This document shows positions 21,776 through 39,304 of a DNA stretch of 41,055 bases, in pieces (the first letter of the stretch is position 1; every line of letters begins with the position of its first letter). The notes below the pieces were generated by a model that did no database searches, was not told the DNA's origin, and saw only the letters and a list, made by a program, of their open reading frames with translations. Position numbers and translations under genes: made by a program. Source of the stretch: Microtetraspora sp. NBRC 16547 (GTDB taxonomy: Bacteria > Actinomycetota > Actinomycetes > Streptosporangiales > Streptosporangiaceae); NCBI RefSeq assembly GCF_030268965.1, contig NZ_BSSE01000042.1, positions 1-41,055 on the forward strand. Direction: 5' to 3'.

Positions 21776-21788
21776 AGAATCATATTCT
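21776..21788. promoter_or_regulatory. AGAATC-type operator site, doxX/SDR side
   Basis: AGAATCATATTCT is a palindrome with five-base arms and a three-base centre, placed 47 bp before the minus-strand SDR start. It is one of seven related 13-mers in front of catabolic or regulator genes in the window. Confidence 0.55.
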
Positions 21789-21846
21789 GCTTTTTGTTTT
21801 AAGTAAAGCCCTCTCGTGCTGGCTGGCTGCACTCGCTGCGACGGCA

Positions 21847-21875
21847 TTGACGAGAATCAGATTCTTCGTTTAGCG
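21847..21875 (+). promoter_or_regulatory. Promoter with operator in its spacer, crotonase side
   Basis: TTGACG at 21847-21852 is a good -35 box. It is followed without a gap by the palindrome AGAATCAGATTCT (21853-21865), and a weak -10 lies near 21869-21876. A repressor on this site would block RNA polymerase directly. The same abutting layout recurs at 30152. The crotonase ATG is at 21969. Confidence 0.6.
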
Positions 21876-21968
21876 TATGCCGCCAACGTGACCAGCCACA
21901 CACTCATCAATCCGTCCGTAGAGCGCTGAGGGGCTGTGCTAGGCGCCGGCCCTCAGATAGGAGACCGG

Positions 21969-22823
21969 ATGACATCGACGACCGAGCCGCCGACGGGGCG
22001 CATCCCGGGCCTGTCGGACTTCACCCTCGTGGAGCGATCCGACGGGCTGGTGACCGTCACCTTCAACCGCCCGGCGGTGAAGAACGCGCTCAACGCGGAG
22101 AACTGGCAGGACTTGGACCTGATCCTGACCGAGGTGACCCACAACCCGGATGACCGTGCGCTCTTGATCACGGGAGCTGGCGGAAACTTCTCCTCGGGTG
22201 CCGACCTTTCCGGTGGCCTGAACGAGGACGCGGGCGAGGAGAGGACTGGCCTCACCGGACGCCGCCAGCAGTCGACCCTGCACGAGATGCGCAACGTCAA
22301 CCTGCTCATCAACCGCCTGCACCGAATGCCGAAACCGACTATTGCGGCGGTCGACGGCGTGGCCATCGGGGTCTCGCTCGGTCTCGCGCTCGCCTGCGAC
22401 CTCATCGTCGCGAGCGACCGTGCCCGATTCTGCGAGATCTTCGTCAAGCGTGGCCTTGCCCTGGACGGAGGCAGTTCCTGGACGTTGCCGCGGAACATCG
22501 GCGTCCGCCGTGCGAAGCAGATGACGATGCTGGGCGACATGGTGGGTGCCGAGCAGGCACTGGCGTGGGGTCTCGTGAACGAGGTCGTCCCCGTGGACGA
22601 CTTGCTAAAGGTCGCCACCGACATGGGCCGTCGGCTCGCTGCCGGACCCACCACGGCGCTGAGCCTGATCAAGCGGCTGATCGACGACAACGGCGCACTT
22701 ACCTTCGAGCAGGCCCTCGAGGAGGAGGCGCGGGCACAGCACATCGCGTTCACCACCAGCGACATGCATGAAGGCGTCCTCGCCTTCGTCGAGCGTCGGC
22801 AGCCGAACTTCACAGGCGCATGA
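21969..22823 (+). CDS. Crotonase-family protein, PaaG-like (enoyl-CoA hydratase/isomerase)
   Basis: A CoA-thioester-processing enzyme of 284 aa. The two oxyanion-hole segments are visible: GAGGNFSSGADLSGG (about 70-84) and VDGVAIGVSLGLALACDL. The segment FVKRGLALDGGSSWTLPR has Asp in the place used by PaaG-type isomerases, and the position of the hydratase Glu is not conserved, so isomerisation or ring-related chemistry is more likely than plain hydration. The ATG at 21969 follows AGGAG; a GTG 11 codons earlier is less likely. It heads the plus-strand run and has its own promoter with operator-like palindrome. The Liv importer genes follow. Confidence 0.82.
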   Translation: MTSTTEPPTGRIPGLSDFTLVERSDGLVTVTFNRPAVKNALNAENWQDLDLILTEVTHNPDDRALLITGAGGNFSSGADLSGGLNEDAGEERTGLTGRRQQSTLHEMRNVNLLINRLHRMPKPTIAAVDGVAIGVSLGLALACDLIVASDRARFCEIFVKRGLALDGGSSWTLPRNIGVRRAKQMTMLGDMVGAEQALAWGLVNEVVPVDDLLKVATDMGRRLAAGPTTALSLIKRLIDDNGALTFEQALEEEARAQHIAFTTSDMHEGVLAFVERRQPNFTGA

Positions 22824-22898
22824 ACTTTCACGGATCGCAGTTCACCGAAGTGCACGTATCCACATCAGCACGACCTAACCGTCCTGGAGGCCAGACGA

Positions 22899-24287
22899 AT
22901 GCGTAAGCAGCCCATTGTGGCGGTGGCAACAGCCGCGCTCGCCCTGCTGCCCACAGCGTGCGGCAGTGGGGAACGAGGGGACGATGGCGCCAATCTCGGC
23001 GCCCTGAGTTCGTCAGATGTCGCCTCGAGCCCGTCCAACGGCGCCTGTTCGGGCAGCACCTTGGAAGCGACCGATGTTGGTATCACCGCCGACGAGATCA
23101 CCGTCGAGATGATCGGTGACACCGGGTCAACGGCCGTCCCTGGCCTCGCGAACGGCGCCGTCGAAGCGGTCAAGGCCTGGGCCGACATGCTCAACGAGCA
23201 GGGTGGCTTGGCCTGCCGGAAGGTCGAGGTCCGCACATACGACTCCAAGCTCTCGCCGGATGAGGCGCGCAACGGCTACGTCGACGCCTGTCAGAACACG
23301 TTTGCCGCGGTCGGGACCACCGCACTGTCGGTCGCGGACGCCACACCGTTGACCGACTGTGCGGATAAGGGCGGGGCGAAGACCGGTCTGCCGGAGGTCC
23401 CCGGGCTGACCATCCTGCCCGTCCACACCTGCAACCCCACCAGTTTCCCCTTGTACGGGAGCGGCGTGCCGTGCCCGCCGGTAGCCGGAGTGCGCGACGT
23501 GGAGGTGTCCAAGGCTGTCGGGACCTTCCTCACACAACAGCTCGGCGCTGATGCGCACGGTCTGTACCTCGTTCCCACCACGGCTGCGGCGTATTCGCAG
23601 GCCGTGATCTCGCAGATTCGGAACCTGGAGCAGAAGTACAACCTGGCTGCGGATATCGAAGCCGGTGCGAACGGCAGAGATCCGCAGTCGGCCTACACGC
23701 CCGCTGCCACGACGATGCGCGACAAGAAGTCGACGTTCGGCTACGGTGCGGCGACATGGCCGAGCTTCCTGCTCATGCAGAAGGAGGCAGCCGTGCAGGG
23801 TGCCAAGCCGAAGATGTGGTACTGCCAGGGCTCCTGCTACGACCCGGGGTACACCAAGGCAGCCGGCAAGGTCGCGGCCGGCACCTACGTGCAGGTGAGC
23901 AACATTCCGTACGAGGAGGCCGACCAGAACGTCGAGGTCAAGGAATTCACCGGGCGGGTCAAGGAGGTGAACTCCTTCGCCCAGGGTGCCTGGGCGGCGG
24001 CCCGCCTGTTCCAGCAGGCGGTAGAGGACACCGTGAAGGCCAGCGGTCCGAACGGCCTCACTCGCGCGAGCCTGCTCAAGGCACTGGCATCCGTCAAGGA
24101 CTTCGACAACCGCGGAATGGTCAGCAGGTCGACGCCCTCGGCAAAGCTCCCGGCCGAGTGCATCGTGATCGTCCAGGTTCAGGACGACGGCAGCTTCAAG
24201 CGGGTCTTCCCTGAGAAGCCCGGCACGATGCAGTGCGAGGGCTACGACACGATCAACATCGACGTGGCCACGGCCTTCAAGGGCTGA
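22899..24287 (+). CDS. ABC transporter substrate-binding lipoprotein (Liv type)
   Basis: Extracytoplasmic binding protein of the Peripla_BP_6 / branched-chain amino acid type, anchored by lipid. The signal peptide ends in LLPTAC with Cys21 as lipid attachment site. The mature part has the two-lobe pattern with AVEAVKAWADMLNEQGGLACRKVEV, the usual N-terminal lobe of this family. Cysteines are more frequent than in Liv proteins for amino acids (for example CNPT, CPPV, CQGSC). TGGAGG precedes the ATG. The permease gene starts 5 bp downstream and two ATPase genes follow. In catabolic clusters such systems take up aromatic or alicyclic carboxylates, so an acid substrate is inferred. Confidence 0.85.
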   Translation: MRKQPIVAVATAALALLPTACGSGERGDDGANLGALSSSDVASSPSNGACSGSTLEATDVGITADEITVEMIGDTGSTAVPGLANGAVEAVKAWADMLNEQGGLACRKVEVRTYDSKLSPDEARNGYVDACQNTFAAVGTTALSVADATPLTDCADKGGAKTGLPEVPGLTILPVHTCNPTSFPLYGSGVPCPPVAGVRDVEVSKAVGTFLTQQLGADAHGLYLVPTTAAAYSQAVISQIRNLEQKYNLAADIEAGANGRDPQSAYTPAATTMRDKKSTFGYGAATWPSFLLMQKEAAVQGAKPKMWYCQGSCYDPGYTKAAGKVAAGTYVQVSNIPYEEADQNVEVKEFTGRVKEVNSFAQGAWAAARLFQQAVEDTVKASGPNGLTRASLLKALASVKDFDNRGMVSRSTPSAKLPAECIVIVQVQDDGSFKRVFPEKPGTMQCEGYDTINIDVATAFKG

Positions 24288-24291
24288 CGCA

Positions 24292-26535
24292 ATGTCGCAA
24301 CGGGTCCGCCGTACGGTTGTCGCCTTCATCTGCGTGGGCGCGGTGGTCGGTGTACTCGCCCCTGCGTGGGCGGGTACACCGATCACCACCGAGAATGTGC
24401 TGCGAGTCGTGCTGTTCGCGTTGCCGATCGCAGGGATCTACGCCATCAGCGCCACCGGCCTGGTCGTGATCCACTCGACGACCGGAATTTTCAACCTCGC
24501 ACAAGGTGCGATCGGCATGATGTGCGCGTTCCTGTTCTGGGAGCTGTCCGTCAACCAAGAGATGCCACGTTCGCTGGCCCTGATCCTCGTTCTGTTCGTC
24601 ATCGCACCGGCCATGGGACTGATCCTCGACCGGTTCCTCATGCGCCGGCTCGCAAGGGCCCCTCTGGCGACCCAACTGATCGGCACCGTCGGCCTGATGG
24701 CCGCCCTGCTAGGGATTGCGACCTGGATCTGGGATCCCAACCGCTCATACCCCATCGCACCGTTCGGCGGCGATGGCGGTGTCCGCATCGCCGGGGTCCT
24801 GCTCACCTGGCACCGCATCATCACCATTGGGGTCGCCATCGTGGTGGCGATCGCACTGCGCCACCTGATGCTGCATACCCGGCTCGGGGTCACCATGCGA
24901 GCGGTGGTCGATGACCCTGACCTGGCTGCCATGCACGGCGTGAAGCCCGGCAGAGTGTCGTCGATCTCGTGGATCATCGGGTGCATGTGTGCGGCCCTGG
25001 CGGGAATTCTCATCGCGCCGGAAATCGGCAATATGAGCGCTGAGACACTGTCGCTACTGATCATCGACTCGTTCGCCGCCGCCGTCATCGGCCGGCTGCG
25101 CAACCTGCCGATGACATACGTCGGGGCGCTCATGGTCGGTCTTGTCGTCACGTTCTCCACGACATTCCTCGACCTCGGACAACGCTGGTCGAAGCTGCCG
25201 ACCGTCCTCCCGGCTCTACTGTTGTTCGTCGCACTGCTGCTATTACCGCAGCAGAAGATCAACCTCGGACGCGTCGTCCGTACGTTCAAGATGGAAAACC
25301 AACCCAGCTGGCGCAGCGCCCTTGTCGCCGCGTTCGTCCTTGTCGGCGCCGCGGCCGTGGCCGCACCGCTGCTGTCGGATGTAAACGCCAGCAGACTCAC
25401 ATCCGGCATCGTCGTCGGCGTCATCCTGCTCGGTCTCGTGCCCCTCCTCGGTTGGGCGGGAATCCCGTTCTTTGCCCCATATGCGCTGGCTGGAGTGGGG
25501 GCATGGGCCACCTGGAGGTTCCAGGAATACATGCCCGGAGTCCTGGCCCTGGTCGTCGCCGGAGCGATCACGGGCATCGTCGGCATCATCGCCTCATTGC
25601 CCGCGCTCCGACTCCGAGGCCTGTACATGGCGCTCAGCTCGATCGCCTTTGCGCTGGTGATGACGAACCTCGTGTTCCTCCAACCGGAGATCTTCGGGCA
25701 GTACCGCCAGCTCGACCGGCCCTCGATCGTCGGCCTCGAGTTGGATTCACCGCAGGCCTTCGCCCTGTTCACCACCGTGATCTACGCAGTGATCGCCTTG
25801 GCCCTGACCTGGCTGCGCACGTCCCGCTTCGGGCGCCAGGTCGTCGCCATGCGAGACAGCGAGGCGGCGGCGTCCTGCCTCGGCATCAGCCTGCTGGAGA
25901 CGAAGGCCGCGGTCTTCGCCGTCGCCGGGATCGCCTCCGGGATCGGGGGTGGCCTGCTCGCGCTGAGCCAACGGTTCGCCAGCCAGGAGCAGTTCCCGAT
26001 GGTGGCCGGCCTCGCGCTCATCCTCACACTGGCGATCTGGGGGGTCGGGATGACCTCCGCGCCGATCATCGCCGGACTGACCATGGCGGCCTTGGTGATC
26101 ATTACCCACGACTGGGCCGAGGGTGGCTGGACCAACGCGCTCGAACTCGCCGGCCCGGGCCTGGCCGCGCTCGCACTCGTGAGCGCCCCGCGGGGTCAGA
26201 TCGTTCAGATCGTCGAGCATGCCAAGTACCACCCGCTGGCCACAGTTCTGCGGGTGGGTGCCCTGTTCGCTGGTGGCTTCATAGGTGTCCGGTTCAACCT
26301 GCCGGGTGCCGTGGGCTTCCTGCTGGCGATCCTGCTGTACCTGGTCGCGGATGTGCTCGGGTCGTTGATCTCCGAACGCCGCCGCCGAGCCACTGCGGGT
26401 GGCGTGCACGGAGACCCGGCAGCCAGCGGTGCGGACGGCGCAGCCGTCGGCATCACCGACCCCCTGACCAAGATCACTGCCCGTGCGCTGGACCGGCGAC
26501 TGGGGGTTTCGAACCTGGAGAAGGTGTTGCGATGA
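24292..26535 (+). CDS. Fused LivH-LivM-type ABC permease
   Basis: A 747-residue membrane protein combining both permease subunits of a branched-chain amino acid-type importer. The first half (about 1-340) has LivH features: LPIAGIYAISATGLVVIHSTTGIFNLAQGAIGMM near the start and GLVVTFSTTFL later. The second half (about 345-690) has LivM features: LPALRLRGLYMALSSIAFAL and SEAAASCLGISLLETKAAVFAVAGIASGIGGGLLAL, the coupling loop. Separate subunits are usual; fusions are known in actinobacteria. The cytoplasmic tail after residue 690 is hydrophilic. It lies 5 bp after the binding-protein gene and overlaps the ATPase gene by ATGA, so subunits are made together. Confidence 0.87.
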   Translation: MSQRVRRTVVAFICVGAVVGVLAPAWAGTPITTENVLRVVLFALPIAGIYAISATGLVVIHSTTGIFNLAQGAIGMMCAFLFWELSVNQEMPRSLALILVLFVIAPAMGLILDRFLMRRLARAPLATQLIGTVGLMAALLGIATWIWDPNRSYPIAPFGGDGGVRIAGVLLTWHRIITIGVAIVVAIALRHLMLHTRLGVTMRAVVDDPDLAAMHGVKPGRVSSISWIIGCMCAALAGILIAPEIGNMSAETLSLLIIDSFAAAVIGRLRNLPMTYVGALMVGLVVTFSTTFLDLGQRWSKLPTVLPALLLFVALLLLPQQKINLGRVVRTFKMENQPSWRSALVAAFVLVGAAAVAAPLLSDVNASRLTSGIVVGVILLGLVPLLGWAGIPFFAPYALAGVGAWATWRFQEYMPGVLALVVAGAITGIVGIIASLPALRLRGLYMALSSIAFALVMTNLVFLQPEIFGQYRQLDRPSIVGLELDSPQAFALFTTVIYAVIALALTWLRTSRFGRQVVAMRDSEAAASCLGISLLETKAAVFAVAGIASGIGGGLLALSQRFASQEQFPMVAGLALILTLAIWGVGMTSAPIIAGLTMAALVIITHDWAEGGWTNALELAGPGLAALALVSAPRGQIVQIVEHAKYHPLATVLRVGALFAGGFIGVRFNLPGAVGFLLAILLYLVADVLGSLISERRRRATAGGVHGDPAASGADGAAVGITDPLTKITARALDRRLGVSNLEKVLR

Positions 26536-27257
26536 CGCTGCTGGACGTCGACAACGTCACGGTGCGCTTCGGCGGTCTGGCCGCTGTCAGCGAGGTGTCG
26601 CTCTCGGTTCCGGAAGGGATCATCATGGGCATCATCGGCCCGAACGGCGCAGGCAAGACCACGCTGTTCAATGTCATCGCGGGCATCCAGGCCCCGACGA
26701 TCGGGCGGATCGCGCTGGCCGGCCGTGACGTGACCTCCATGCCACCGCACCATCGCGCACGCCGCGGGCTGGCACGCACCTTCCAGCGTCTCGAGGTGTT
26801 CGGCACCCTCACGGTGCGAGAGAACATTCTCGTGGCGGCCGACGCACGCCGCCGGTGGGAGCGGGGCGTCTCACCGCGCGTAGTTGCGGACGAGTTGCTC
26901 GAACGCATCCGACTGACCGATGTCGCCGCATCGACGGTAGACGCACTACCGACCGGCACGCAGCGACTCGTGGAGCTGGCACGGGCGCTGGCCGCAGGGC
27001 CGAAACTGCTCTTGCTCGACGAGGCGTCCTCGGGCCTGTCGAACTTCGACACCGACCGCATCTCATCTCTGCTCCGCGAACTGGTGGAGGCCGACGGGCT
27101 CACCATCGTGCTGGTCGAGCATGACATGCCGTTCGTCATGGGGCTGAGTGACCGCGTCGCCATGCTCGACCATGGCCGGTTGGTGGCGCAGGGGACACCC
27201 ACGGAGATCCAGGAGATGCCGGCCGTGCAAGAGGCCTACCTCGGAGTTCGCCGATGA
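26532..27257 (+). CDS. LivG-type ABC transporter ATPase
   Basis: First ATP-binding subunit of the Liv-type importer, 241 aa, at the inner face of the membrane. Walker A GPNGAGKT is at 36-43, Walker B LLLLDE ends in Asp163-Glu164, and the switch His is His197 in LVEHDM. The ABC signature reads LPTGTQR instead of the usual LSYGQQR, and the Walker B region reads DEASSGLS rather than DEPAAGL, an unusual but not clearly inactive set. The ATG lies in the stop of the permease gene and the stop overlaps the next ATPase start, so expression is coupled on both sides. Confidence 0.87.
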   Translation: MTLLDVDNVTVRFGGLAAVSEVSLSVPEGIIMGIIGPNGAGKTTLFNVIAGIQAPTIGRIALAGRDVTSMPPHHRARRGLARTFQRLEVFGTLTVRENILVAADARRRWERGVSPRVVADELLERIRLTDVAASTVDALPTGTQRLVELARALAAGPKLLLLDEASSGLSNFDTDRISSLLRELVEADGLTIVLVEHDMPFVMGLSDRVAMLDHGRLVAQGTPTEIQEMPAVQEAYLGVRR

Positions 27258-27958
27258 CCGCACCACTTCTGGAACTGCGCGGTGTCAGCGCAGCCTACGG
27301 ACAGATCGAAGTCCTGCACGGTATCGACCTGACTCTGCAGGCAGGCCAGGTCCTCACCGTGCTGGGTCCCAACGGAGCCGGCAAGACCTCGACGGTCAAG
27401 GTCATAGCCGGGCTGCTCACGCCGACGAACGGCAGAGTCGAACTCTGCGGCCGGGATGTCACCAGCGCGTCAGCTGATCAGCTCTCCCGAGCCGGGGTTT
27501 GTGTCGTACCCGAGGGTCGCGGCATCTTCCCTCGACTGAGCGTTGAGGAACACCTGAAGCTTTCGGCCTGGGGGGCCGAAGGACGGGAGGCACGCGTACA
27601 GATCTTCGACGCCTTCCCGCGCCTGTACGAGCGGCGCAAGCAACTCGCCGGAACCATGTCGGGAGGCGAGCAGCAGATGCTCGCGCTCTCCCGAGCGATC
27701 GCCCGACGGCCGGCACTGCTGGTTGTCGACGAGTTGTCGATGGGCCTGGCACCGCTGGTCGTCGAGCAGTTGTACGAGCACGTTCGCGCCATCGCGACGC
27801 AGGGCGTGTCGATCGTGCTCGTCGAGCAGTTCATCCACGACGTGCTTGGCATCGCCGACGTGGCGGTCGTCATGCAGAACGGAACCGTCGTCCGGAGCGG
27901 ACACCCCGACGACCTCGCAGAAGATCTCGCCGGGCTCTACCTAGCGGCAAGCCTCTAA
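27254..27958 (+). CDS. LivF-type ABC transporter ATPase
   Basis: Second ATP-binding subunit, 234 aa. Walker A GPNGAGKT is at 38-45, the signature is canonical (MSGGEQQ, 135-141), Walker B ends in Asp159-Glu160, and the LVEQF switch has Gln192, as is normal in LivF. The PEGRGIFPRLSVEEHL segment is characteristic of LivF. It overlaps livG by ATGA. The canonical signature here and the altered one in LivG suggest an asymmetric ATPase pair. Confidence 0.88.
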   Translation: MTAPLLELRGVSAAYGQIEVLHGIDLTLQAGQVLTVLGPNGAGKTSTVKVIAGLLTPTNGRVELCGRDVTSASADQLSRAGVCVVPEGRGIFPRLSVEEHLKLSAWGAEGREARVQIFDAFPRLYERRKQLAGTMSGGEQQMLALSRAIARRPALLVVDELSMGLAPLVVEQLYEHVRAIATQGVSIVLVEQFIHDVLGIADVAVVMQNGTVVRSGHPDDLAEDLAGLYLAASL

Positions 27959-27968
27959 CGGAGGAAAC

Positions 27969-28424
27969 ATGACCAGCGCCAAGCAGCCACTGACCGCCCG
28001 GACAACGGCTCCCGTCGTGAACGTCCCCACCGCACAATCTCCCAGCACGGACCCTTCACCAGGCGACGGCAGCATCATGTCCACCGCCGGGCGTGAAGCG
28101 TTCGAGGCCGAACTTTCCCGACTCAAGATCAGCAACAACAGCGGCCCGCTGGATAGCCGGTTCGCCACTGTCGGCCTAGTCGGCGCCGTGGCCGGACTGG
28201 TCGTCATCCTGGTCTGCTTCGTGCAGACCCAGGCCTTGAGCGACATCCGCGACCAGATGGAGATGCTCGTCCTCGCCCTGTTCGGGCTCGGGCTCGGCGT
28301 CCTCGGATCGGTCATCTATGCGCGGAACTCGATGACGAGGTTCATGCGCTACTGGCTGCTGCGGATCATCTACGAGCAGCGGCACCCCGCGTCGGGTTCG
28401 GACAACCACCAGATCGGAGCGTGA
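27969..28424 (+). CDS. Small two-helix membrane protein next to the importer
   Basis: No family recognised. The 151-residue product has a polar, Thr/Pro/Ser-rich N-terminal half (about 1-65). Two membrane helices follow (about FATVGLVGAVAGLVVILVCF and LVLALFGLGLGVLGSVIYA), then a short basic tail. GGAGGAAAC stands before the ATG, 10 bp after livF, and it is close to the synthetase gene. Position and topology suggest an accessory of the importer or a link between import and CoA activation at the membrane. This is inference from location. Confidence 0.68.
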   Translation: MTSAKQPLTARTTAPVVNVPTAQSPSTDPSPGDGSIMSTAGREAFEAELSRLKISNNSGPLDSRFATVGLVGAVAGLVVILVCFVQTQALSDIRDQMEMLVLALFGLGLGVLGSVIYARNSMTRFMRYWLLRIIYEQRHPASGSDNHQIGA

Positions 28425-28426
28425 GG

Positions 28427-30115
28427 ATGGATTTCGCCGGCACGCCCCCGGAGAGGCTCAGCGAGCTCGCCGCGAAGATCACGGCCCCTGGCATGTTGTT
28501 CGAGGTCACAGAGGAGGAGGTCCTCGGTCAGCGCATGCGGGTGTTCAAGAACAGGCATCGCTCTCTACGCGAGTTCCTCGGTGCTTCGCGCCGCTTTGGA
28601 ACCCGCACGTACCTCGTCGACGGCGACGTGCGGCTCGACTACGCGACCACCCTGGCCCAAGTTGACGCTCTCGCCTCCGCGCTGCGACGCGACTACGGAA
28701 TCCAGCCAGGCGACCGAGTCGCCATCTACGCCGCCAACCGGTGGGAATGGGTCGTCTCGTTCTGGGCCGTTGCCAGCGCCGGCGCCATTCCGGCCGCATT
28801 CAACAGCCTGTGGACCCGGGACGAGTACATCCACGCGGTGAACCTGACCACGCCGCGGCTGGTCATCGGCGACGCCCGACGGCTCGAGGGAGCGCGCTCC
28901 TCCGGCCTCGATACGCCGCTACTCGACATGGTCGAATTTCCGGGGATCGTGGCGCTCCACGCCGGCGAGCGTCCGGAGACGGTGCCAGTGGACGAGGACG
29001 ACCCCGCTCTGCTGATCTTCACCAGTGGTACGACGGGGCGATCGAAGGCGGTCATTATCTCGCACCGGAGCGCCTGCGGGTTCGTCCAGCTCAACCAGTT
29101 CGCCGAAGTGCGGGGGATGGTCCTGTTCGGCGCGCCCATCCCAAAGGTGGGCGACGAGCTGCCCCCGAGCGACGACGTCACGCTGACGACCGCCCCACTG
29201 TTCCACATGACGATGGTGCAGGGCGGGATAATGGCCCTGCTGGCGAAGGGAGCCGAACTCGTGCTCGTCCCAGGTCGCTTTGATCCCGAGCGGGTCCTGG
29301 CGACTATCGAGCGGGAACGGGTGACGTCGTGGTCGCCCCTCGGCAGTGCTGCGACGCGAGTGGCGAACTGTCCGGCGATAGAGCGGTACGACACCAGCAG
29401 TCTGCGGATCCTCGGGGTCGGCGGCGCGCCGGTGAGCCCGGCAGTACAGGACGGCCTGCGCCGTGCCTTCCCGAGCGCCTCCGCCCTGCTCGGCATGGGC
29501 TACACGAGCACCGAGGGCGGAGCGGTCATCGCGACCATCTCCGGACCCGAGTTCGCCCAGCACCCCCAGTCAACCGGGCGCATCACCTTCACCACCCAAG
29601 TGGAACTTCGTGACGTCGACGGACGGCCGGTGCCGGCGGGGCAGTACGGCGAGGTCCATGTACGGAGTCCCTACATCATGCTCGGCTACTGGAACGATCC
29701 CGAGGCCACGGCCCCAGCGATCAAGCCGGGTCGTTGGCTCGCGATGGGGGACATCGCCCGGTTCGAGGACGGCCTGCTCTACATCGACTCGCGAGCCAGG
29801 GACATGATCCTCGTGAGTGCCGAGAACGTGTCGCCGACCGAGGTGGAGTACGTTCTCGAGTCCCACCCTCGGGTCGTCGAGGCGGCGGTGTTCGCCGTCA
29901 ACGACGACATCACCGGAGACGCTGTGTGTGCCGTCTTGTCGGTCGGAGACATGGTGACGAGGGACGAGCTGACGGCTTGGTGTAGCGAGCGACTTGCCCG
30001 CTACAAGGTGCCCACCCGTTGGCACATCATCCAGAGGCCGCTGCCGCGGACCGCGAGCGGCAAGCTCGTCAAGCGGGAGTTGCGCCTGCAGGTCGAGAAG
30101 GGCGTGCTCGCCTAG
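28427..30115 (+). CDS. AMP-forming acyl-CoA synthetase
   Basis: Converts a carboxylic acid, ATP and CoA to the acyl-CoA. All adenylate-forming motifs are present: the P-loop TSGTTGRSK (199-207), GMGYTSTEGG, GDIARFEDGLLYIDSRARDMILVSAENVSPTEVE, and the C-terminal PRTASGKLVKREL with Lys546. Length (562 aa) is normal for FadD-like or medium/aryl-acid ligases; the specificity cannot be read. I use the ATG at 28427, seven bases after GGAG, rather than the GTG at 28421. It follows the two-helix protein directly, which fits uptake coupled to activation. A damaged fragment of a different synthetase lies at 20711. Confidence 0.88.
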   Translation: MDFAGTPPERLSELAAKITAPGMLFEVTEEEVLGQRMRVFKNRHRSLREFLGASRRFGTRTYLVDGDVRLDYATTLAQVDALASALRRDYGIQPGDRVAIYAANRWEWVVSFWAVASAGAIPAAFNSLWTRDEYIHAVNLTTPRLVIGDARRLEGARSSGLDTPLLDMVEFPGIVALHAGERPETVPVDEDDPALLIFTSGTTGRSKAVIISHRSACGFVQLNQFAEVRGMVLFGAPIPKVGDELPPSDDVTLTTAPLFHMTMVQGGIMALLAKGAELVLVPGRFDPERVLATIERERVTSWSPLGSAATRVANCPAIERYDTSSLRILGVGGAPVSPAVQDGLRRAFPSASALLGMGYTSTEGGAVIATISGPEFAQHPQSTGRITFTTQVELRDVDGRPVPAGQYGEVHVRSPYIMLGYWNDPEATAPAIKPGRWLAMGDIARFEDGLLYIDSRARDMILVSAENVSPTEVEYVLESHPRVVEAAVFAVNDDITGDAVCAVLSVGDMVTRDELTAWCSERLARYKVPTRWHIIQRPLPRTASGKLVKRELRLQVEKGVLA

Positions 30116-31395: not shown

Positions 31396-31404
31396 GTCAC
31401 CAAG

Positions 31405-32277: not shown

Positions 32278-33404
32278 GTGTTCGTCTATTTCCGAAGCTG
32301 GATGAGAACCAGCGCCTGATGCTCGACGCGGTCGTCCGGCTCACCGAAGCCGGCTGTCCCCTGACCGGGGTGCGCGACCGCGCCGACGGTTCGGCCCCGA
32401 GCGACCCAGGTCTGCGTCGCACGCTCGCCGACGTCGGCTGCTATGGCCTGCTCAGCACGGAGGAGCTCGGAGGTGGCAGCGTGTCGGGCAACGGCGTCGT
32501 CGATGCCGCCCTGATCGCCGCGGAGCGGGGCGCTCGGTTGCAGCCGGGACCGTTCGTCGCCACCAGTGTGGTCGTCCACGCCCTTACGGTGGCAGGCGCC
32601 AACGCGCACCAGGCCGACGTGCTCACTTCGCTTATCGCCGGCGATGCCGCCGCGTCCTGGACGGTGGTCGACGCGGGCTCGCTGTCCGTACGGCGTCACG
32701 AGCAGGAGTGGGTGCTGTCCGGCACCGTCGCGGCGGTGCAGGACGCGGACGAGTGCGAGTGGCTGCTGATGACCCTCGCGCAGGACGGCAACCAGATCCT
32801 GATCCCGCTGGCGGCGGACGGGGCGAAGCTCGTGCCGCTGGAGCGGCTGGACGTGACCCATCGCTTCTTTGACGTGCATCTCGACGACGTCACCGTGCCG
32901 GTCGCGAACCTGCTGACCCCTGCGGGTTCGTCCCAGGACCTCGTGGATCGGCAGTTCTCTATCGCCGCGGTTCTGGCCGCCGCCGAGGCGGTCGGTGCGA
33001 TGGACAGCGATCTGAGGCTCGCGGTGGAGTACGCGAAGACTCGCATCGCGTTCGGTCGGCCGATCGGCTCCTTCCAGGCGGTGAAGCACCGGCTGGCGGA
33101 CACGAGCCTCATCGTGGAGATGGCCAAGGGAATCGTCGCGGCCGCCGCCGATGCCGTCGGTCGTGGCGCGGCGGACGGGGACGCGTTGGCCAGCGTGGCC
33201 AAGGCGTTCGTCAGCGAGCGGTCGATCGAAGCCGCGCACAACTGCTTCCAGGTCTTCGGTGGCATCGGCTTCACATGGGAGCACGACCAGCATCTGTTTC
33301 TACGGCGCCTTGCGTCGGACGCCTACCTTTTCGGGAGTCCGAACTGGCACCGCGATCGGCTCTGGAAGCACGCCGACACCGAATCCAGGAGAGCGCATGT
33401 CTGA
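32274..33404 (+). CDS. Acyl-CoA dehydrogenase, subunit A of a pair
   Basis: FAD-dependent acyl-CoA dehydrogenase-fold protein (376 aa). The C-terminal part has RIAFGRPIGSFQAVKHRLAD and NCFQVFGGIGFTWEHDQHLFLRR, the form found in one subunit of actinobacterial heterotetrameric enzymes for steroid-type side chains. The N-terminal half is divergent and lacks clear FAD-binding W-T or S-x-x-G-S-D motifs. It overlaps its neighbours on both sides (ATGA with the amidohydrolase, 8 bp with the second dehydrogenase), which supports a mixed alpha2beta2 enzyme. The actual acyl-CoA substrate is unknown. Confidence 0.85.
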   Translation: MSVRLFPKLDENQRLMLDAVVRLTEAGCPLTGVRDRADGSAPSDPGLRRTLADVGCYGLLSTEELGGGSVSGNGVVDAALIAAERGARLQPGPFVATSVVVHALTVAGANAHQADVLTSLIAGDAAASWTVVDAGSLSVRRHEQEWVLSGTVAAVQDADECEWLLMTLAQDGNQILIPLAADGAKLVPLERLDVTHRFFDVHLDDVTVPVANLLTPAGSSQDLVDRQFSIAAVLAAAEAVGAMDSDLRLAVEYAKTRIAFGRPIGSFQAVKHRLADTSLIVEMAKGIVAAAADAVGRGAADGDALASVAKAFVSERSIEAAHNCFQVFGGIGFTWEHDQHLFLRRLASDAYLFGSPNWHRDRLWKHADTESRRAHV

Positions 33405-34668
33405 GGCGGAGAAGCTCGCGGACTACCGGGCACGGGCAAGGGCCTGGCTTGAGGCGAACATGGAGCCACTGGGGCCGACGGCCAAGTCCCGGTTCTCCTT
33501 CGCCGAGGATGATGACTTCACCCCGGAGCGGTTGGCTGAGCAGCAGGCCCTCCAGCGCAAGGTATACGACGCCGGCTACGCGGGCATCTCATGGCCCGCG
33601 GAGTACGGCGGACAGGGCCTGCCGAAAGCCTACGAACGGGCCTTCGAGCAGGAGGCGGCCCACTTCGTGATGCCCAACCTCGGGATCGCCGGCGGCACGA
33701 CCATGGGCGTGTGCGGACGGACCATCCTCGCCCACGGCTCGCCGGAGCTGCTCAGAACGCACATTCCCCGGGTCCTCTCCGGCGAGGAGTTGATCGTCCA
33801 ACTCTTCTCCGACCCCGAGGCCGGGTCGGACCTCGCCGGCGTACGCACGCAGGCCGTCCGCGACGGAGACCGCTGGGTGCTGAATGGATCCAAGATCTGG
33901 ACGAGCGGCGCCTACTACGCCAACTACGGCATGTGCCTGGTACGGACGAACTGGGATGTCCCCAAGCACCGCGGCCTGACCTGGTTCTTGGTGCCCCTCG
34001 ACGCACCCGGCGTAACGGTTCAGCGCATCAAACAGATCAATGGCAATGCCGAGTTCTGCACGGAGTTCTTTGACGACGTCGAACTGACCGACGCCGATAT
34101 CATCGGGGAGCTCGACAACGGCTGGACGGTCGCCCAGACCATGTTGATGTTCGAACGAGGCGGCGGTGGCGAGGCCGCGGCGATGAGTTCGCCCGATCCG
34201 CGGGACATCGCGCCCGACCTGCGCGAGCTGGCCGCAGCGGTGGGTCGGCTGGACGATCCCCAGGCTCGGCGGCTCATCACCACCGCTCACGTCGACGACG
34301 TGGTCCGCCACCACCTGTCCCGGCGTCTCGTGGGGCTGATGCGCAGCGACTCGCGCCAGGCAGGTGCGCTTGCCTCATACGGCAAGCTGGCGTCCGGGGT
34401 CTACGACCCGATCCGCGCCAACCTCGCCCTCGAGATAGCGGACGGCGGGGCATCCACCTGGCAGCACGGGGACTCACCTGGCGCCCACGCGGCAACAGAC
34501 CTGCTGAACTGTCGTTTCATGGCGATCGCCGGCGGCACGGTCGAGATGCAGCGGAACTCGATCGGAGAACGCGTCCTGGGTCTCCCACGCGAACCGTCCT
34601 TCGACAGCGAGCGGCCGTTCCGGGAGGTCGTCCGGGCAGCCATGAACTGGTCCGGCAAGGTGGGTTGA
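33397..34668 (+). CDS. Acyl-CoA dehydrogenase, subunit B of a pair
   Basis: A 423-residue dehydrogenase subunit with well conserved FAD/acyl-CoA motifs: GISWPAEYGGQGL, QLFSDPEAGSDLAGVRT, WVLNGSKIWTSGA, and the C-terminal IAGGTVEMQRNSIGERVLGLPRE, which carries the Glu of the catalytic region. I start it at the ATG at 33397, with CCAGGAGAG directly upstream; the frame is open further back but that part lies inside subunit A. The stop TGA touches the ATG of the CoA-transferase gene (TGATG). Best seen as the partner of the preceding protein in one alpha,beta-dehydrogenation step. Confidence 0.88.
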   Translation: MSEAEKLADYRARARAWLEANMEPLGPTAKSRFSFAEDDDFTPERLAEQQALQRKVYDAGYAGISWPAEYGGQGLPKAYERAFEQEAAHFVMPNLGIAGGTTMGVCGRTILAHGSPELLRTHIPRVLSGEELIVQLFSDPEAGSDLAGVRTQAVRDGDRWVLNGSKIWTSGAYYANYGMCLVRTNWDVPKHRGLTWFLVPLDAPGVTVQRIKQINGNAEFCTEFFDDVELTDADIIGELDNGWTVAQTMLMFERGGGGEAAAMSSPDPRDIAPDLRELAAAVGRLDDPQARRLITTAHVDDVVRHHLSRRLVGLMRSDSRQAGALASYGKLASGVYDPIRANLALEIADGGASTWQHGDSPGAHAATDLLNCRFMAIAGGTVEMQRNSIGERVLGLPREPSFDSERPFREVVRAAMNWSGKVG

Positions 34669-37058
34669 TGGCAACTGTGGACATGCCGATGCCGTTGGAC
34701 GGTCTGCGCGTCCTGGACCTGTCCGATTCCCGCGCGACGCTGGCGGCCCGGCTGCTGGCGGACCTCGGCGCCGATGTCATCCGGATCGAGGTGGTGGACG
34801 ACGCGTCCGCGGGTCCGGACCGTATCGACCCGCTGTCCCTCGCATGGGCGGTCAGGAACGCGAACAAACGTGTCGTCCGCCTGCGCGAACCGAGCGATCA
34901 AGACCGGCGGGGCGTCGCCCGCCTGCTGGCGGGCACAGACATCCTCCTTGAGAGCGGCGCCGAGGCCGGTGGTCTGTTGCCCTCTCCCGTCGCGGCGCTG
35001 CATGACAGCCACCCGCACCTGACCGTCGTCTCGGTCTCCGATTTCGGAGCGACCGGACCGTACAGCGGCTACGTCGGCACCGACGCGATCCTTGCCGGGA
35101 TGGGCTGGATGCTCTACAAGGCGGGCACGACCGATCGCCCGCCGGTGCTTCCGCCGGCCTCGATGGCGTATGACATCTCCGGAGTCATGGCGGCGTTCGC
35201 GGCATTGATAGGCGTCCACGACCGGCGCCGAACGGGTACCGGCCAGCACCTCGATGTGTCGATCATCGAGGCGCTGCAGCAGACGACGGACTGGGCACTG
35301 CCCAACGCCGTCCACACGCGTGAGATCGGTCAACGGTCCAGTGAGGTTCGCAGCGGGGGTGGTGAGGCTCAGCCCGTCGTCGCGTGCAGGGACGGCTGGG
35401 TCCGCACCGCGGTGCTCGCCGCAGCCGAATGGCGACGGCTTCGGGAGTGGATGGGCGACCCGCCCGAGCTCGACGACCCGGCCTTCGACGCGCTGTCCAC
35501 ACGGGTCGCACGATGGGAAGAGCTGAAACCGTATTTCCTCCGCCTGTTCGCCGACCTGACCATGGTCGAGGCATCCGAAGAGGGCCAGCGCAGGCGAATT
35601 CCCGTCACGCCGGTCCTGCGACCGTCCGACGTGCTGAACGCCGTGCAGTACGACGAACTCGGCACCTTCGTCCGAGGACCGGTCGGTGACCGGATCGGCG
35701 AAGGCCGGTATGCCAGCGGCTACTGGACCATCGACGGAACCCGCGCCGGTTTCCGCGCGCCTGCCCGTGAGCTGCCTTCCGTGCCGACCTGTGAATGGCG
35801 GGCGCCGGCTCGCAACTTCCGTGTGCCCTGTAGTGGGCCCGGCTCGACGGCATGGCCACTGCAAGGTATCCGGGTACTCGATCTCGGGATCGCCGGGGCC
35901 GCACCGGAGACGGCGCGACTGCTCGCGGAGTACGGCGCGGACGTCGTCAGGGTGGAGTCGCCGAACCATCCGGATCTGCTGCGTCAGCTCGGCGGCGAGT
36001 CGGGCATGGGCCCGACGTTCATCTCGACGAACCGGTGCAAGCGCAGCTTCGGTGTGGACCTCTCCGACCCACGCGGGGTCGGCCTGCTCAAGCGCCTGGC
36101 CGCCGAGGCCGACGTATTGGTGGAGAACCTCGCGCCTGGCGCCCTTGATCGGTTCGGTATCGACCTCGCCGAACTGCGTCGTGCGAACCCGGAGCTGATC
36201 ACGCTCAGCAGCCAGATGATGGGCCCGTACGGCCCGTGGCGGGGGTGGCGCGGCTACGGTGCGAACACCCAGCCACCCGGCGGCCTGACCTACCTCTGGA
36301 GCTACCCAGACCTGCCGGAACCGATCGGCACCAACCTCGCCTTCCCCGACCACGTCGCGGGCCGCCTCGGCGCGCTGGCGGTCGTCGCGTGCCTGCTGTC
36401 CCCTTCTCGATCCGCCCGCCACGTCGATCTCGTCCAGGCCGAAGTAGGGATCAATCTGCTCGCCGAGCTGTACCTGCGCGAGTCGCTGGAGCCGGGCAGC
36501 GTACGGCCGGCAGGCAATGCCTCGCCTGAAGGCGCGCCATGGGGCGTCTACCGTTGTGCGGGGCAGGAGCGGTGGTGCGTGATCACGGTCCGGGACGACA
36601 CCGACTGGGCGAACCTGGTGACCGCGCTCGGCGACCCGGTGTGGGCCACGGAGGATCTCCGGACGGAGGCCGGCCGTCGCGCCCGGGCTGAGGAGGTGGA
36701 CCGGCACATTCAGGAGTGGACGAGCACACGCACCGATCAGGAGGTCATGTCGGACCTGCAGGCCCACGGAGTCCCAGCCGGCTACGTGATGTACCCGAGC
36801 GACATCGTCGATGATCCGCATCTGTCCGCTCGCGGCTACCCGGTCCGCTACGACCAGCCGCACTTCGGCTCTGTCGTTATCGAGGGCGGAGCCTTCCGCT
36901 CACCCCGTCTTCTGGCGCCGATCCTCACCCCCGCGCCGCTGCTCGGCGAACACACCACCGAAATCGCTCTCGACATGCTCTGGCTCGATGATCAGGAGGT
37001 AAAGCAACTAGTGGCCGACGCGGTGCTCTTCCAGGCGAAGGTCCCGCCGACCAGCTGA
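34668..37058 (+). CDS. Double-domain CaiB/BaiF (family III) CoA-transferase
   Basis: Moves CoA between acids without free intermediates, or racemises acyl-CoA; 796 aa, about twice the normal size, because two family III domains are fused. Domain 1 (about 1-390) begins LDGLRVLDLSDSRATLAARLLADLGADVIRIE and has GYVGTDAILAGMG with an Asp where the catalytic carboxylate is expected. Domain 2 (about 400-796) begins GIRVLDLGIAGAAPETARLLAEYGADVVRVE, but in GYGANTQPPGG the corresponding residue seems to be Asn, so only the first domain may be catalytic (alignment by eye). It starts on the last base of the dehydrogenase stop. Nine bases separate its end from the convergent TetR gene. Confidence 0.85.
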   Translation: MATVDMPMPLDGLRVLDLSDSRATLAARLLADLGADVIRIEVVDDASAGPDRIDPLSLAWAVRNANKRVVRLREPSDQDRRGVARLLAGTDILLESGAEAGGLLPSPVAALHDSHPHLTVVSVSDFGATGPYSGYVGTDAILAGMGWMLYKAGTTDRPPVLPPASMAYDISGVMAAFAALIGVHDRRRTGTGQHLDVSIIEALQQTTDWALPNAVHTREIGQRSSEVRSGGGEAQPVVACRDGWVRTAVLAAAEWRRLREWMGDPPELDDPAFDALSTRVARWEELKPYFLRLFADLTMVEASEEGQRRRIPVTPVLRPSDVLNAVQYDELGTFVRGPVGDRIGEGRYASGYWTIDGTRAGFRAPARELPSVPTCEWRAPARNFRVPCSGPGSTAWPLQGIRVLDLGIAGAAPETARLLAEYGADVVRVESPNHPDLLRQLGGESGMGPTFISTNRCKRSFGVDLSDPRGVGLLKRLAAEADVLVENLAPGALDRFGIDLAELRRANPELITLSSQMMGPYGPWRGWRGYGANTQPPGGLTYLWSYPDLPEPIGTNLAFPDHVAGRLGALAVVACLLSPSRSARHVDLVQAEVGINLLAELYLRESLEPGSVRPAGNASPEGAPWGVYRCAGQERWCVITVRDDTDWANLVTALGDPVWATEDLRTEAGRRARAEEVDRHIQEWTSTRTDQEVMSDLQAHGVPAGYVMYPSDIVDDPHLSARGYPVRYDQPHFGSVVIEGGAFRSPRLLAPILTPAPLLGEHTTEIALDMLWLDDQEVKQLVADAVLFQAKVPPTS

Positions 37059-37066: not shown

Positions 37067-37705
37067 CTACGGGCCGGCTTCGCCGTTCTGCGGGCCGCGA
37101 ACCCGCGGCTTGCCGAACAGGATCGTGACCGCCGCGTCGAGGTTGTCCAGAACGGTGCGGAGCGTGAGACGGCCCAGCGACCACTCGCGCAGTTGCTGAC
37201 CCAGCACAGACTGCGCGACGAGGGCCACGAGGGCCACGTCGCGCGGATCCGTGTCGTGCAAGAGTCCTTGGACGATGTTGGTGAACGACCGCGCGTAGCC
37301 GGCGAAAACCTCACGGGCGGCCACATCCGTGGTGACCTCGAGCACCGTGATCAGCTTATAGAAATACGGGTGACGCGCGTACGCCCGTGCCGTTCGCTTG
37401 AGGACGGCCCGCAGTCTGTCCGCGTCCGTGGTCGCGCGAAGAGACTGCGCCAGCACCTTCGACTCGAAGGGCTTACCCCACTCGATCAGCGCATGGGCAT
37501 ACAGTTGTTCCTTCGAAGGGAAGTACCGATACAGGGTGGCCAGGGCGACTTCAGACGCCTCGGCGACCTCCCGGATCTGGATCTGCTCGTATTCCCGCTC
37601 ATCGAGCATTTCAACGGCCATGGCCAGGATCCGCTCACGGCGTGCGCGCTGCGACGCCGTGCGTGCTTCCGCCGGCTGCGCCACCGCGCTGAGTTCGGCG
37701 ACCAG
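37067..37705 (-). CDS. TetR-family regulator, apparent CTG start, paralogue of 13892-14509
   Basis: A 212-residue regulator if it starts at the CTG at 37705, which lies five bases after GGAGG. A GTG at 37684 is possible but has no ribosome site. The helix-turn-helix includes IQIREVAEASEVALATLYRYFPSKEQLYAHA; the C-terminal domain keeps YKLITVLEVTTDVAAREVF and LREWSLGRLTLRTVLDNLD in common with the regulator at 13892. It is divergent from the MBL gene across a region with an AGAATCTAG site, a palindrome and hexamer repeats, and it is convergent with the CoA-transferase gene. It is the best candidate for the regulator of the catabolic genes. Confidence 0.83.
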   Translation of the reverse strand: MVAELSAVAQPAEARTASQRARRERILAMAVEMLDEREYEQIQIREVAEASEVALATLYRYFPSKEQLYAHALIEWGKPFESKVLAQSLRATTDADRLRAVLKRTARAYARHPYFYKLITVLEVTTDVAAREVFAGYARSFTNIVQGLLHDTDPRDVALVALVAQSVLGQQLREWSLGRLTLRTVLDNLDAAVTILFGKPRVRGPQNGEAGP

Positions 37706-37725
37706 GACTTCCTCCCAAGATCACG

Positions 37726-37771
37726 AATGACTCGACATGAGTCATTTCTTCTGACACCAGAATCTAGCACT
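37726..37771. promoter_or_regulatory. Palindrome and AGAATCTAG site upstream of tetR
   Basis: AATGACTC (37726-37733) and GAGTCATT (37739-37746) form an exact inverted repeat with five bases between. AGAATCTAGCACT (37759-37771) is a copy of the recurring motif. Both lie within 70 bp of the TetR start, as expected for self-control. Confidence 0.55.
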
Positions 37772-37823: not shown

Positions 37824-37872
37824 TCTAGAGTGCAAGAGTAAGAGTAAGAGTCTAGTTATAGTTCGTTGGAGG
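37824..37872 (+). promoter_or_regulatory. Tandem AAGAGT repeats and motif copy before the MBL gene
   Basis: AAGAGT occurs three times in tandem (37834-37851), flanked by TCTAG at 37824-37828 and 37851-37855. AGAGTCTAGTTAT (37847-37859) is a two-mismatch copy of the operator motif. GGAGG at 37868-37872 is the ribosome site for the ATG at 37878. Confidence 0.5.
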
Positions 37873-37877
37873 CGTGG

Positions 37878-38903
37878 ATGCGGAGCGATCCGACGGTCGA
37901 GGAACTGCGACCCGGCCTCTGGGCCATTCCGGTGCCCATTCCGGACCATCCACTTCGCTACACCGTGAGCTATCTCTTCGAAGCAGCCGACCAAGCCGTC
38001 ATTGTGGATCCAGGCTGGTGCTCCGACGATGGTTGGTCGGCGCTTCAGTGGGGACTTCGTCAGACGGGCCGCAGCGCTGGTGACATCGCGGGTATCGTCG
38101 TCACCCACGCCCATCCTGACCACCACGGTCTGGCCGAGAGGTTGCGCCGGGCCTCCGGGGCCTGGATCGCGATGCACGCGCTGGAGGCGCCGCTGTCCGA
38201 TTCGCGAGGCGACTGGGATCCGGACCTGCGACGAACGAACGACGTCGCGGTTCTGCGCGAAAACGGCGTGCCGGATCCGATCGTCACCGAAATCGTCCAC
38301 GACGAGGAGTTCTTCGCGTCCTTCGAGCCGACTCCAATTCCGGACAGGCGGCTGGAGGACGGGGACAGGCTTCCCCTGCGAGGCCGCGATGTGCGGGTGG
38401 TGTGGACCCCCGGTCACGCGCCCGGGCACATCTGCCTGTACGACGCCGACGCCGATGTCTTCCTCTCTGGCGACCACGTCCTGCCGCGCATCAGCCCGCA
38501 GATCTTCGATCAGCCGCACAACAAGTCGTCCGCACTCAGCGACTACCTCGCCTCGTTGGACCGTGTCGCGGCCTACGACTCCGCGGAGGTGCTGCCCGCG
38601 CACGAATACCGGTTCCGCGGGCTCGCCGCTCGCACGGTCGAACTCACCCGCCACCACGAGGCGAGACTGGCCGAGATAGAAACACTCCTGCGTGCGCGCC
38701 CAGGTGCGACGGCATGGTTCGTCACTACCGAGATCAGCTGGTCGCGTGGATGGGACGCGATCGAAGGGCAGACGCGCCGGATCGCCTTGGGCGAGACCGT
38801 CGCGCACCTCAACTACCTGATTGAAAACGGTCGCATACGCAGCAGCCGTCCCGACCCGGACGGGCCGCGCTACTACGAACTGGCCGACGGTGGTCGGTGT
38901 TAA
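37878..38903 (+). CDS. Metallo-beta-lactamase-fold hydrolase
   Basis: A 341-residue hydrolase with a complete binuclear metal site: THAHPDHHG (His77, His79, Asp81, His82), His180 or His184 in GHAPGH, Asp199 in SGDH, and His242 in PAHEYRF. The C-terminal extension (about 255-341) is helical with a winged-helix-like end (IALGETVAHLNYLIENGRI), as in LACTB2-like members. Such enzymes hydrolyse thioesters, lactones or similar bonds; here release or opening of a CoA-pathway intermediate is a fair guess. The ATG at 37878 has GGAGG at the ideal distance. It is divergent from the TetR gene and under the motif copies at 37759 and 37847. Confidence 0.85.
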   Translation: MRSDPTVEELRPGLWAIPVPIPDHPLRYTVSYLFEAADQAVIVDPGWCSDDGWSALQWGLRQTGRSAGDIAGIVVTHAHPDHHGLAERLRRASGAWIAMHALEAPLSDSRGDWDPDLRRTNDVAVLRENGVPDPIVTEIVHDEEFFASFEPTPIPDRRLEDGDRLPLRGRDVRVVWTPGHAPGHICLYDADADVFLSGDHVLPRISPQIFDQPHNKSSALSDYLASLDRVAAYDSAEVLPAHEYRFRGLAARTVELTRHHEARLAEIETLLRARPGATAWFVTTEISWSRGWDAIEGQTRRIALGETVAHLNYLIENGRIRSSRPDPDGPRYYELADGGRC

Positions 38904-39274
38904 TCGGACTGATCGCGGACACCCACGTGCCGGAGGCGGCTCCGGCGCTTCCGCAAGCCGTGCTCGACGTGTTCGCCGGGTGCGACCGGGTCCTGCGCTG
39001 CGGCGACCTGCACGCGCTGGCCCGGCACATCTCCGGACGGTGGGGCAGGCGGGGCATCCGTGCCACCGCGGTGCTGCTGGGATTCGTGGTCACGGACAAG
39101 ATGAACGCCGACGAGAAGATGCTGCAGACCTACCTCGCTCTGCACAGAAGTCCCCGCCTGGGCGAGCCCGTGGACATCGCAGCGATGGTGACCCTGCTCC
39201 TGTCCGACGAAGGCGCCTGGATCAACGGTCAGACGATCGCGGTCAACGGCGGTGCGCACCTCATGACCGGCTGA
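38897..39274 (+). pseudogene. Chimeric ORF: metallophosphoesterase N terminus fused to SDR C terminus
   Basis: A 125-codon uninterrupted frame starting at a GTG that overlaps the MBL stop. Residues 1 to about 41 (MLIGLIADTHVPEAAP... to RCGDLHA) are the first two metal motifs of a calcineurin-like phosphoesterase. From LARHISGRWGRRGIRATAV onward it is the C-terminal third of a short-chain dehydrogenase, ending VDIAAMVTLLLSDEGAWINGQTIAVNGG. Neither half can be active alone: the phosphoesterase lacks its later His motifs and the SDR lacks the Rossmann start and the Tyr-x-x-x-Lys site. A deletion joining two former neighbour genes in frame explains it. It could still be translated. Confidence 0.8.
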
Positions 39275-39291
39275 GATCGACTAGCTTTTCT

Positions 39292-39304
39292 AAATCTAGA
39301 TTCT
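39292..39304. promoter_or_regulatory. AGAATCTAG-type site before the second crotonase gene
   Basis: On the minus strand the site reads AGAATCTAGATTT, sharing the first nine bases with the copies at 30158 and 37759. It lies 35 bp before the ATG at 39339. Confidence 0.5.

Follow-up and report, generated by a model that had tools for sequence, protein, structure and literature searches.

The DNA analysed in this work (hereafter, the window) is the entire contig NZ_BSSE01000042.1 of Microtetraspora sp. NBRC 16547: contig C42 of our numbering, with 41,055 bases, in a genome of 7.82 Mb and 151 contigs. The window contains four units of catabolic genes (A to D) and two related regulatory genes, tetR1 and tetR2. 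A short motif recurs in the gene-start regions of these units and regulators, and this putative operator is, in our opinion, best written as CYAGANY-N3-RNTCTRG, an imperfect palindrome of 17 bp. Each of the four catabolic units is preceded by it, as is tetR1, while the copy at tetR2 is weak (Table 1). Gene limits were obtained without annotation, from our own codon-score script and ribosome-binding sites judged by eye, while promoters were called from consensus.

The gene order of units A and B suggests that each of them forms a single transcript. The ABC importer of unit A is of the branched-chain type, and the acyl-coenzyme A (CoA) ligase has as its best NCBIfam model CasG, a steroid-24-oyl-CoA synthetase (561 bits, below the cut-off of 750). 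In unit B, the models nearest to the two dehydrogenase-type proteins are IpdE2 (127.7 bits, cut-off 450) and PimC, both remaining below cut-off; the CoA-transferase III has two matched stretches, and amidohydrolase 2b matches the PDB entry 4dzi (1.9e-165), with PtmU3 and DitZ as weaker matches. Our best guess from such similarities is that the substrate of the cluster might be a steroid- or terpenoid-like acid. The short frame that follows the MBL-fold hydrolase in unit C (38897-39274) looks like a remnant, being weakly metallophosphoesterase-like at its start (24.9 bits, cut-off 27) and SDR-like at its end.

TetR1 and TetR2 are 59% identical and compose the sole close pair in the genome, the next protein by E-value being 30% identical. 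Both exceed the Pfam TetR_N cut-off, and a low-confidence structure model has nine helices, as expected for the TetR family. KstR is both the nearest PDB sequence to TetR2 (1.1e-16) and the top fold match of the structure model (TM-score about 0.5, with CoA-thioester complexes among the matches). With the NCBIfam KstR model (NF033703), TetR1 and TetR2 scored 77.8 and 79.0 bits, respectively, far short of the cut-off of 280. The recognition-helix stretch reads VALATLYRYFPSK in TetR2 and VAVGTLYRYFPSK in KstR; such a stretch is common among TetRs. Three related tetR genes, starting at 14509 and 37703-37705 in the window and at 9956 in a Nocardia locus described below (L011), have an apparent CTG start behind a strong ribosome-binding site. 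We regard TetR1 and TetR2 as probable sister repressors of a KstR-like subfamily.

Table 1. Genes, units and operator sites, with leave-one-out scores of the sites for the 13-bp core and the 23-bp form (in brackets, the number of background positions scoring as high)
Feature	Position	Strand	Remarks
tetR1, KstR-like TetR	13892..14509	-	205 residues; CTG start behind GGGGAGGACAAT; Pfam TetR_N 41.6 bits, cut-off 24
tetR1 operator CTAGACTACAATTCTGG	14589..14605 (core 14591-14603)	-	0 mismatches to CYAGANY-N3-RNTCTRG; overlaps extended -10 TGCTAGACT; core 17.3 (1), 23 bp 28.2 (0 of 200,452)
Distal copy before unit A, AGAATATGATTCT on -, AGAATCATATTCT on +	21776..21788	-	Same 14 bp as chromosomal C1:56991; core 20.2 (0), 23 bp 18.2 (1)
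Unit A operator	21853..21865	+	In the spacer between -35 TTGACG (21847-21852) and -10 TAGCGT (21871-21876); core 15.7 (1), 23 bp 9.4 (17)
Unit A	21969..30115	+	Crotonase 1, substrate-binding protein, permease, two ABC ATPases, hypothetical protein, acyl-CoA ligase; profile matches
Unit B operator AGAATCTAGTTCT	30158..30170	-	Right after -35 TTGACA (30152-30157), ahead of -10 TAGTGT (30174-30179); core 20.6 (0), 23 bp 21.2 (0)
Unit B	30226..37058	+	Amidohydrolases 2b and 2a, two acyl-CoA dehydrogenase-type proteins, CoA-transferase III; profile matches
tetR2, KstR-like TetR	37067..37705	-	CTG at 37703-37705 behind GGGAGGAAGTC; Pfam TetR_N 45.3 bits, cut-off 24
Weak tetR2 operator	37751..37771	.	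37753-37765 on -, aligned with the other tetR promoters (core (62), 23 bp (4)), or 37759-37771 on +, the register of the original prediction
MBL gene operator AGAGTCTAGTTAT	37847..37859	+	Overlaps a possible -10 TATAGT (37857-37862); core 16.5 (1), 23 bp 15.2 (4)
Unit C	37878..38903	+	MBL-fold hydrolase, then short SDR-like fragment (38897-39274); profile matches
Crotonase 2 operator CTAGATTCTAATTCTGG	39296..39312 (core 39298-39310)	+	0 mismatches to CYAGANY-N3-RNTCTRG; core 20.8 (0), 23 bp 30.0 (0)
Unit D	39339..40175	+	Crotonase 2; profile matches
Chromosomal N3-type palindromes	C1:56991 (L039 12189), C1:506119 (L041 10118), C1:25718 (L032 1219)		Before acyl-CoA dehydrogenase and crotonase genes

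In the promoters of units A and B, the operator fills the space between the -35 and -10 elements (TTGACG-AGAATCAGATTCT-TCGTT-TAGCGT and TTGACA-AGAACTAGATTCT-AGA-TAGTGT, respectively). In all four tetR promoters compared (tetR1, tetR2, L011 and the family locus L014/L023), the extended -10 element TGCTAGRYT includes the left half of the operator. Such positions, over the -10 element or within the -35/-10 spacer, point to repression by exclusion of RNA polymerase. We consider it likely that TetR1 and/or TetR2 bind the operator, regulate their own genes, repress units A to D and are released by a CoA thioester of the pathway. Dimers of one or both proteins would bind the 17-bp palindrome and block RNA polymerase at tetR1, where the site lies over the extended -10 element, perhaps at tetR2, and at the four catabolic units. 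The cluster's acyl-CoA ligase would carry out the first step of the pathway, and a resulting CoA thioester is the likely inducer, given the sterol-CoA complexes of KstR in the PDB and the CasG-like ligase, beside which an IpdE2-like dehydrogenase is encoded. The controlled genes might perhaps serve the breakdown of a steroid-like acid.

Distribution of the operator in the window and the genome

The original prediction listed seven copies of a 13-bp motif, and we found all of them at the same coordinates and on the same strands. The copy at 39292-39304 on the minus strand turned out to be a weaker overlapping reading of 39298-39310 on the plus strand (13.1-13.6 vs 20.1), and the copy at 37759 is weak. 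In fact, both registers at tetR2 are weak, with core scores of 6.8 (37753) vs 11.9-12.3 (37759) and scores with flanks of 13.2 vs 16.8.

When up to three mismatches were allowed, AGAATCTAGTTCT had 11 matches at nine places in the window, two of these places (25459 and 33289) being coding; in 100 shuffles, the mean was 2.19 and the maximum 9, so that at least 11 matches were never reached. The 14-bp pattern TAGANTMHRRTTCT has three perfect matches in the whole genome, all of them in this contig (14591-, 30158- and 39297+). With up to one mismatch, 11 matches were found genome-wide, six of them (five sites) in the window and five elsewhere, against nine for the reversed control. Hence, the genome-wide total is about that of the control, and only the clustering in the contig stands out. 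The pattern was written from the sites themselves (ten aligned by eye), and it thus indicates localisation and gives no independent P value. In six other genomes, there were two perfect matches in total, one at the tetR promoter in G698 and one in G002, while matches with up to one mismatch and those of the reversed control numbered 6/8 in G001, 14/10 in G002, 6/6 in G003, 6/4 in G315, 20/5 in G698 and 13/4 in G699. An alternative, even-spaced 14-bp reading, AGAATCTAGATTCT, was rejected: it had 24 genome places with up to three mismatches (reversed control, 7), the single best one, with two mismatches, being at 39291 of the window.

For leave-one-out scoring, ten sites were picked by eye ahead of matrix building and compared with 200,452 background positions, either as the 13-bp core or as the core with 3 + 7 flanking bases (23 bp). 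This background included L001 and L002, fetched for matching the motif pattern, as well as L026 and L027, which carry related TetRs. With the core, no background position scored as high for four of the ten sites, one did for five, and 62 did for 37753; with the 23-bp form, none did for five sites, the others being 21776, 21853, 37847 and 37753 (Table 1) and position 13407 of L011 (two positions). When the final 23-bp matrix was applied, the best 14 matches in the window were all intergenic, six of its nine training sites lying inside the window. With the core matrix, all six main sites (19.2-22.1) outscore the best coding match (14.6 at 14217, within tetR1), which in turn outscores 39292 (13.6) and 37759 (12.3). 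The earlier statement that no copy was noticed inside genes is therefore true for the good sites only.

The spacing of the half-sites is also distinctive. With up to two mismatches in CYAGANY and RNTCTRG, a spacer of 3 gives 13 intergenic and 10 coding matches in the window; for the other lengths tried (0 to 12), the counts per spacer range from 0 to 5 in intergenic and from 4 to 13 in coding DNA. Some of the 13 intergenic matches are GC-rich and probably due to chance.

The operator and its TetR in other genomes

Scanning genome contigs for relatives of TetR2 yielded three loci, one of which (L013, 31% over 61 residues) was dropped. In searches for orthologues at 1e-30, TetR2 was found only in its own genome among four genomes of the genus, in one of 394 sampled genomes of the class (its own) and in one of 150 Nocardia genomes (that of L011), and at 1e-35 in two of 345 genomes of the order and two of 341 genomes of the family (its own and G315). 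Scoring in these large searches covered only the 7-20 top first-look candidates of each genome, and some orthologues may therefore have been missed.

The upstream blocks of tetR1 (GCTAGACTACAATTCTGGAAATT), of the tetR gene of Nocardia sp. alder85J in L011 (GCTAGATTATGGTTCTGGAAGTT) and of that of L014/L023 from G315 of the family (GCTAGGCTCTAGTTCTAGAAATT) align without gaps; the block of tetR2 (GCTAGATTCTGGTGTCAGAAGAA) is decayed. For tetR1, L011 and L014, the operator is thus found at the regulator's own promoter and kept with the regulator, linking it to this TetR type in three genomes. In the Nocardia locus, it also lies ahead of an amidohydrolase gene (13407) whose product is 74% identical to that of gene 1b of amidohydrolase pair 1 of the window and 56% identical to 2b; other relatives there include a crotonase (65%) and the TetR (61%).

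When only the five catabolic sites were used to build the matrix, its top match was the tetR promoter both in L011 (20.6 kb) and in L023 (19.9 kb). Among 2000 trials with column-shuffled matrices, this outcome was reached 176 times for L011, 110 times for L023 and 11 times for both. This test was judged by rank within each locus, and its background additionally included L034 and L036, fetched for matching the motif pattern. The highest background score (18.3, in L001) exceeds that of the L011 promoter (18.2), and the L023 promoter (14.3) is below a match of 14.6 in L037, a locus fetched for closeness to another match.

Two second-tier TetRs (L026 and L027), 35-48% identical over part of their length, have amidohydrolase neighbours; their best 23-bp matrix matches, too, lie next to tetR in the intergenic gap and have imperfect cores, and the best core-matrix match of L027 lies within a gene. 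No operator was found in a stretch of Streptomyces plasmid DNA whose enzymes are similar but whose TetRs are distant; the best core match there (11.1) is in a gene. In this small sample, the presence of the site tracks this type of TetR and not the enzymes. The proposal of a local TetR regulon gains support both from the operator preceding a related tetR in two other genomes and from this plasmid stretch.

Chromosomal sites and other possible readers

Several observations weigh against the regulation of units A to D by TetR1 and TetR2 as proposed above. The site before tetR2 is weak, and the promoter of amidohydrolase pair 1 has no operator (best, four mismatches), although its Nocardia relative has a site. 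Likewise, L012/L028 of Nocardia aurantia, the third locus with a close TetR, shows no clear site; its tetR is interrupted (65% over residues 8-70 in a frame of 114 residues, with more pieces beyond). L023 has a good site at tetR only, and the further related genes in L024 and L025 lack any site above 11.9. The structure model is weak (mean predicted local distance difference test score 64.8; root-mean-square deviation to KstR about 14), and TAGANTMHRRTTCT with one mismatch is genome-wide about as frequent as its reversed control (see above). Finally, near-identical sites are also present on the chromosome, and genus-mates that have no TetR1/2 carry them as well; such sites and the siteless amidohydrolase pair 1 argue that the regulon is not closed.

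On contig C1, CCAGAATCATATTCTGG is found before the gene of a fused acyl-CoA dehydrogenase of 747 residues, whose two halves have IpdE2 and PimC as their nearest models, like the dehydrogenase-type proteins of unit B; ACAGAATCGTATTCTGG stands before a second acyl-CoA dehydrogenase gene and TAGGATCAGGTTCT before a crotonase gene. G001 has all three 14-mers, G002 those of the two dehydrogenase genes, and G003 the first and third, with the gene context examined for one of them, the CCAGAATCATATTCTGG 14-mer in G001. This conservation in genomes without TetR1/2 makes it probable that the N3 code has a resident reader, with which TetR1/2 may share their operator. We searched for it among the KstR-like TetRs of the genus and did not find it. 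In each of the four genomes of the genus, two KstR-like matches scored 120-134 bits (with weaker extras, two in G002 and one in G003), and no N3 site with up to two mismatches was seen in the five resident KstR-like promoters covered; three of the eight loci (L051, L056 and L057) were left out because the gene is on the minus strand and the stretch is not its promoter. In three genomes (L052-L054), the N2 palindrome GTAGAAC-N2-GSTCTAA is located upstream of one resident KstR-like gene. A possible further site outside the window, AGAATCTTGTTCT, was noticed at position 1501 of L001 (G000 C28:52840), about 10 bp upstream of a reading frame of 301 residues.

It is tempting to suppose that the N3 code is common to the repressors of the acquired cluster and a resident regulator of core acyl-CoA dehydrogenase genes, but we regard this as a rather doubtful possibility. 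Less probable still is that the resident regulator mainly reads the catabolic sites, with TetR1/2 controlling only themselves or sharing sites. Such a scenario might explain why CCAGAATCATATTCTGG and ACAGAATCGTATTCTGG precede acyl-CoA dehydrogenase genes, why both 14-mers persist in G001 and G002 and the first in G003, all without TetR1/2, and why the window site 21776 and CCAGAATCATATTCTGG have 14 bp in common. However, in L011 and L014 the operator is located at tetR itself, and the two KstR-like TetRs of the Microtetraspora genome lack an upstream N3 site (up to two mismatches), one of them having the N2 palindrome instead. The two TetRs, named as the natural binders in the original prediction, thus remain good candidates as far as the operator appears to accompany their type, but in view of the chromosomal sites they may not be its only readers.

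The N2 palindrome also bears on the idea that a resident KstR-type protein reads the sites, which would then be KstR boxes of degenerate sequence. CYAGANY covers CTAGAAC, the half-site of the published TAGAAC-N2-GTTCTA; yet a spacer of 2 gives no intergenic match in the window, and the spacer-2 palindrome stands before the resident KstR-like gene in three genomes, which makes this explanation hardly credible. Slightly better, though still very unlikely, is coincidence, with AT-rich promoter elements (-10 boxes such as TAGANT) being mistaken for an operator. Part of the tetR block is indeed the extended -10 TGCTAGRYT, the seven sites were selected after the fact, and TAGANTMHRRTTCT at one mismatch is not commoner than its control. 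Promoter elements alone would nevertheless fit poorly with the spacer-3 specificity, the leave-one-out scores, the cross-genome ranking by a matrix without tetR sites and the three perfect 14-bp matches, all in this contig. Overall, control by TetR1 and/or TetR2 remains the reading we prefer.

Known systems and significance

KstR, to which TetR1 and TetR2 are related, controls cholesterol breakdown in mycobacteria. As far as the consulted parts of PMC1995591 describe it, the KstR regulon (Rv3574/MSMEG_6042) resembles the system proposed here in the TetR fold (KstR being also the closest PDB relative), the half-site (C)TAGAAC, autoregulation, a site overlapping the -10 element and lipid-degradation targets. 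The difference lies in the spacer: the KstR operator in those parts is TAGAAC-N2-GTTCTA, while the spacer here is 3, so that the half-site fits and the whole operator does not, in line with the initial impression of a KstR-like palindrome at another spacing. In addition, the targets here include amidohydrolases, an ABC importer and an MBL hydrolase. In Mycolicibacterium neoaurum, KstR3 is, according to portions of PMC10398937, likewise a TetR-type negative regulator lying in the short sterol-related operon that it controls. Its targets (atf1, chsH4 and chsE6), compared by description only, match none of those here; no operator is given in these portions, and the words motif and palindrom are absent from the text. 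We did not find the N3 operator in the open-licence PubMed Central literature searched, where one of six exact 13-mers occurs, in a paper on chicken B cells.

The enzymes have a counterpart in a plasmid cluster of Streptomyces sp. NBC_00564 (NZ_CP107787.1), which comprises amidohydrolases, a branched-chain ABC importer, crotonase, MBL, VOC and SDR proteins but differs in its distant TetRs and lack of such an operator. There (L050, 140000-189000), the similar catabolic genes adjoin a mycofactocin cluster, near a catA gene 79% identical to window 193-887. In the window itself, HTH-like, DNA-primase-like (DNAG_N, Toprim) and DUF2637 genes at 7746-13540 suggest a mobile-element or plasmid part adjoining the cluster, and at 18640-20980 there are stretches that look, by eye, like remnants of an aldehyde-dehydrogenase gene and a transposase/integrase gene. 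A plasmid origin was considered and rejected: no plasmid record has a TetR2 relative at 1e-15, and window 1-25000 matched three plasmid records, two via catA and one via 60 bases. A separate repeat, GATTGGACAWWT, with copies at 16225-16236 and 16428-16439, one on each side of the gap that separates tetR3 (15587-16300) from amidohydrolase pair 1, is a possible operator of tetR3.

Overall, we would describe the system as a probable local TetR regulon of KstR-like type, with 3 bp between the operator half-sites, and as fairly ordinary otherwise. For this catabolic cluster, it supplies a putative operator together with its candidate regulators and the units that they would control, and the operator can be used as a marker for further members. 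A KstR-type half-site at another spacing offers a clean case for how TetR dimers change operator length. An operator-based reporter would permit a screen for inducers and, hence, for the substrate class. If the N3 code were indeed shared with a resident regulator, it would cross-wire an incoming cluster into the lipid regulon of its host on arrival.

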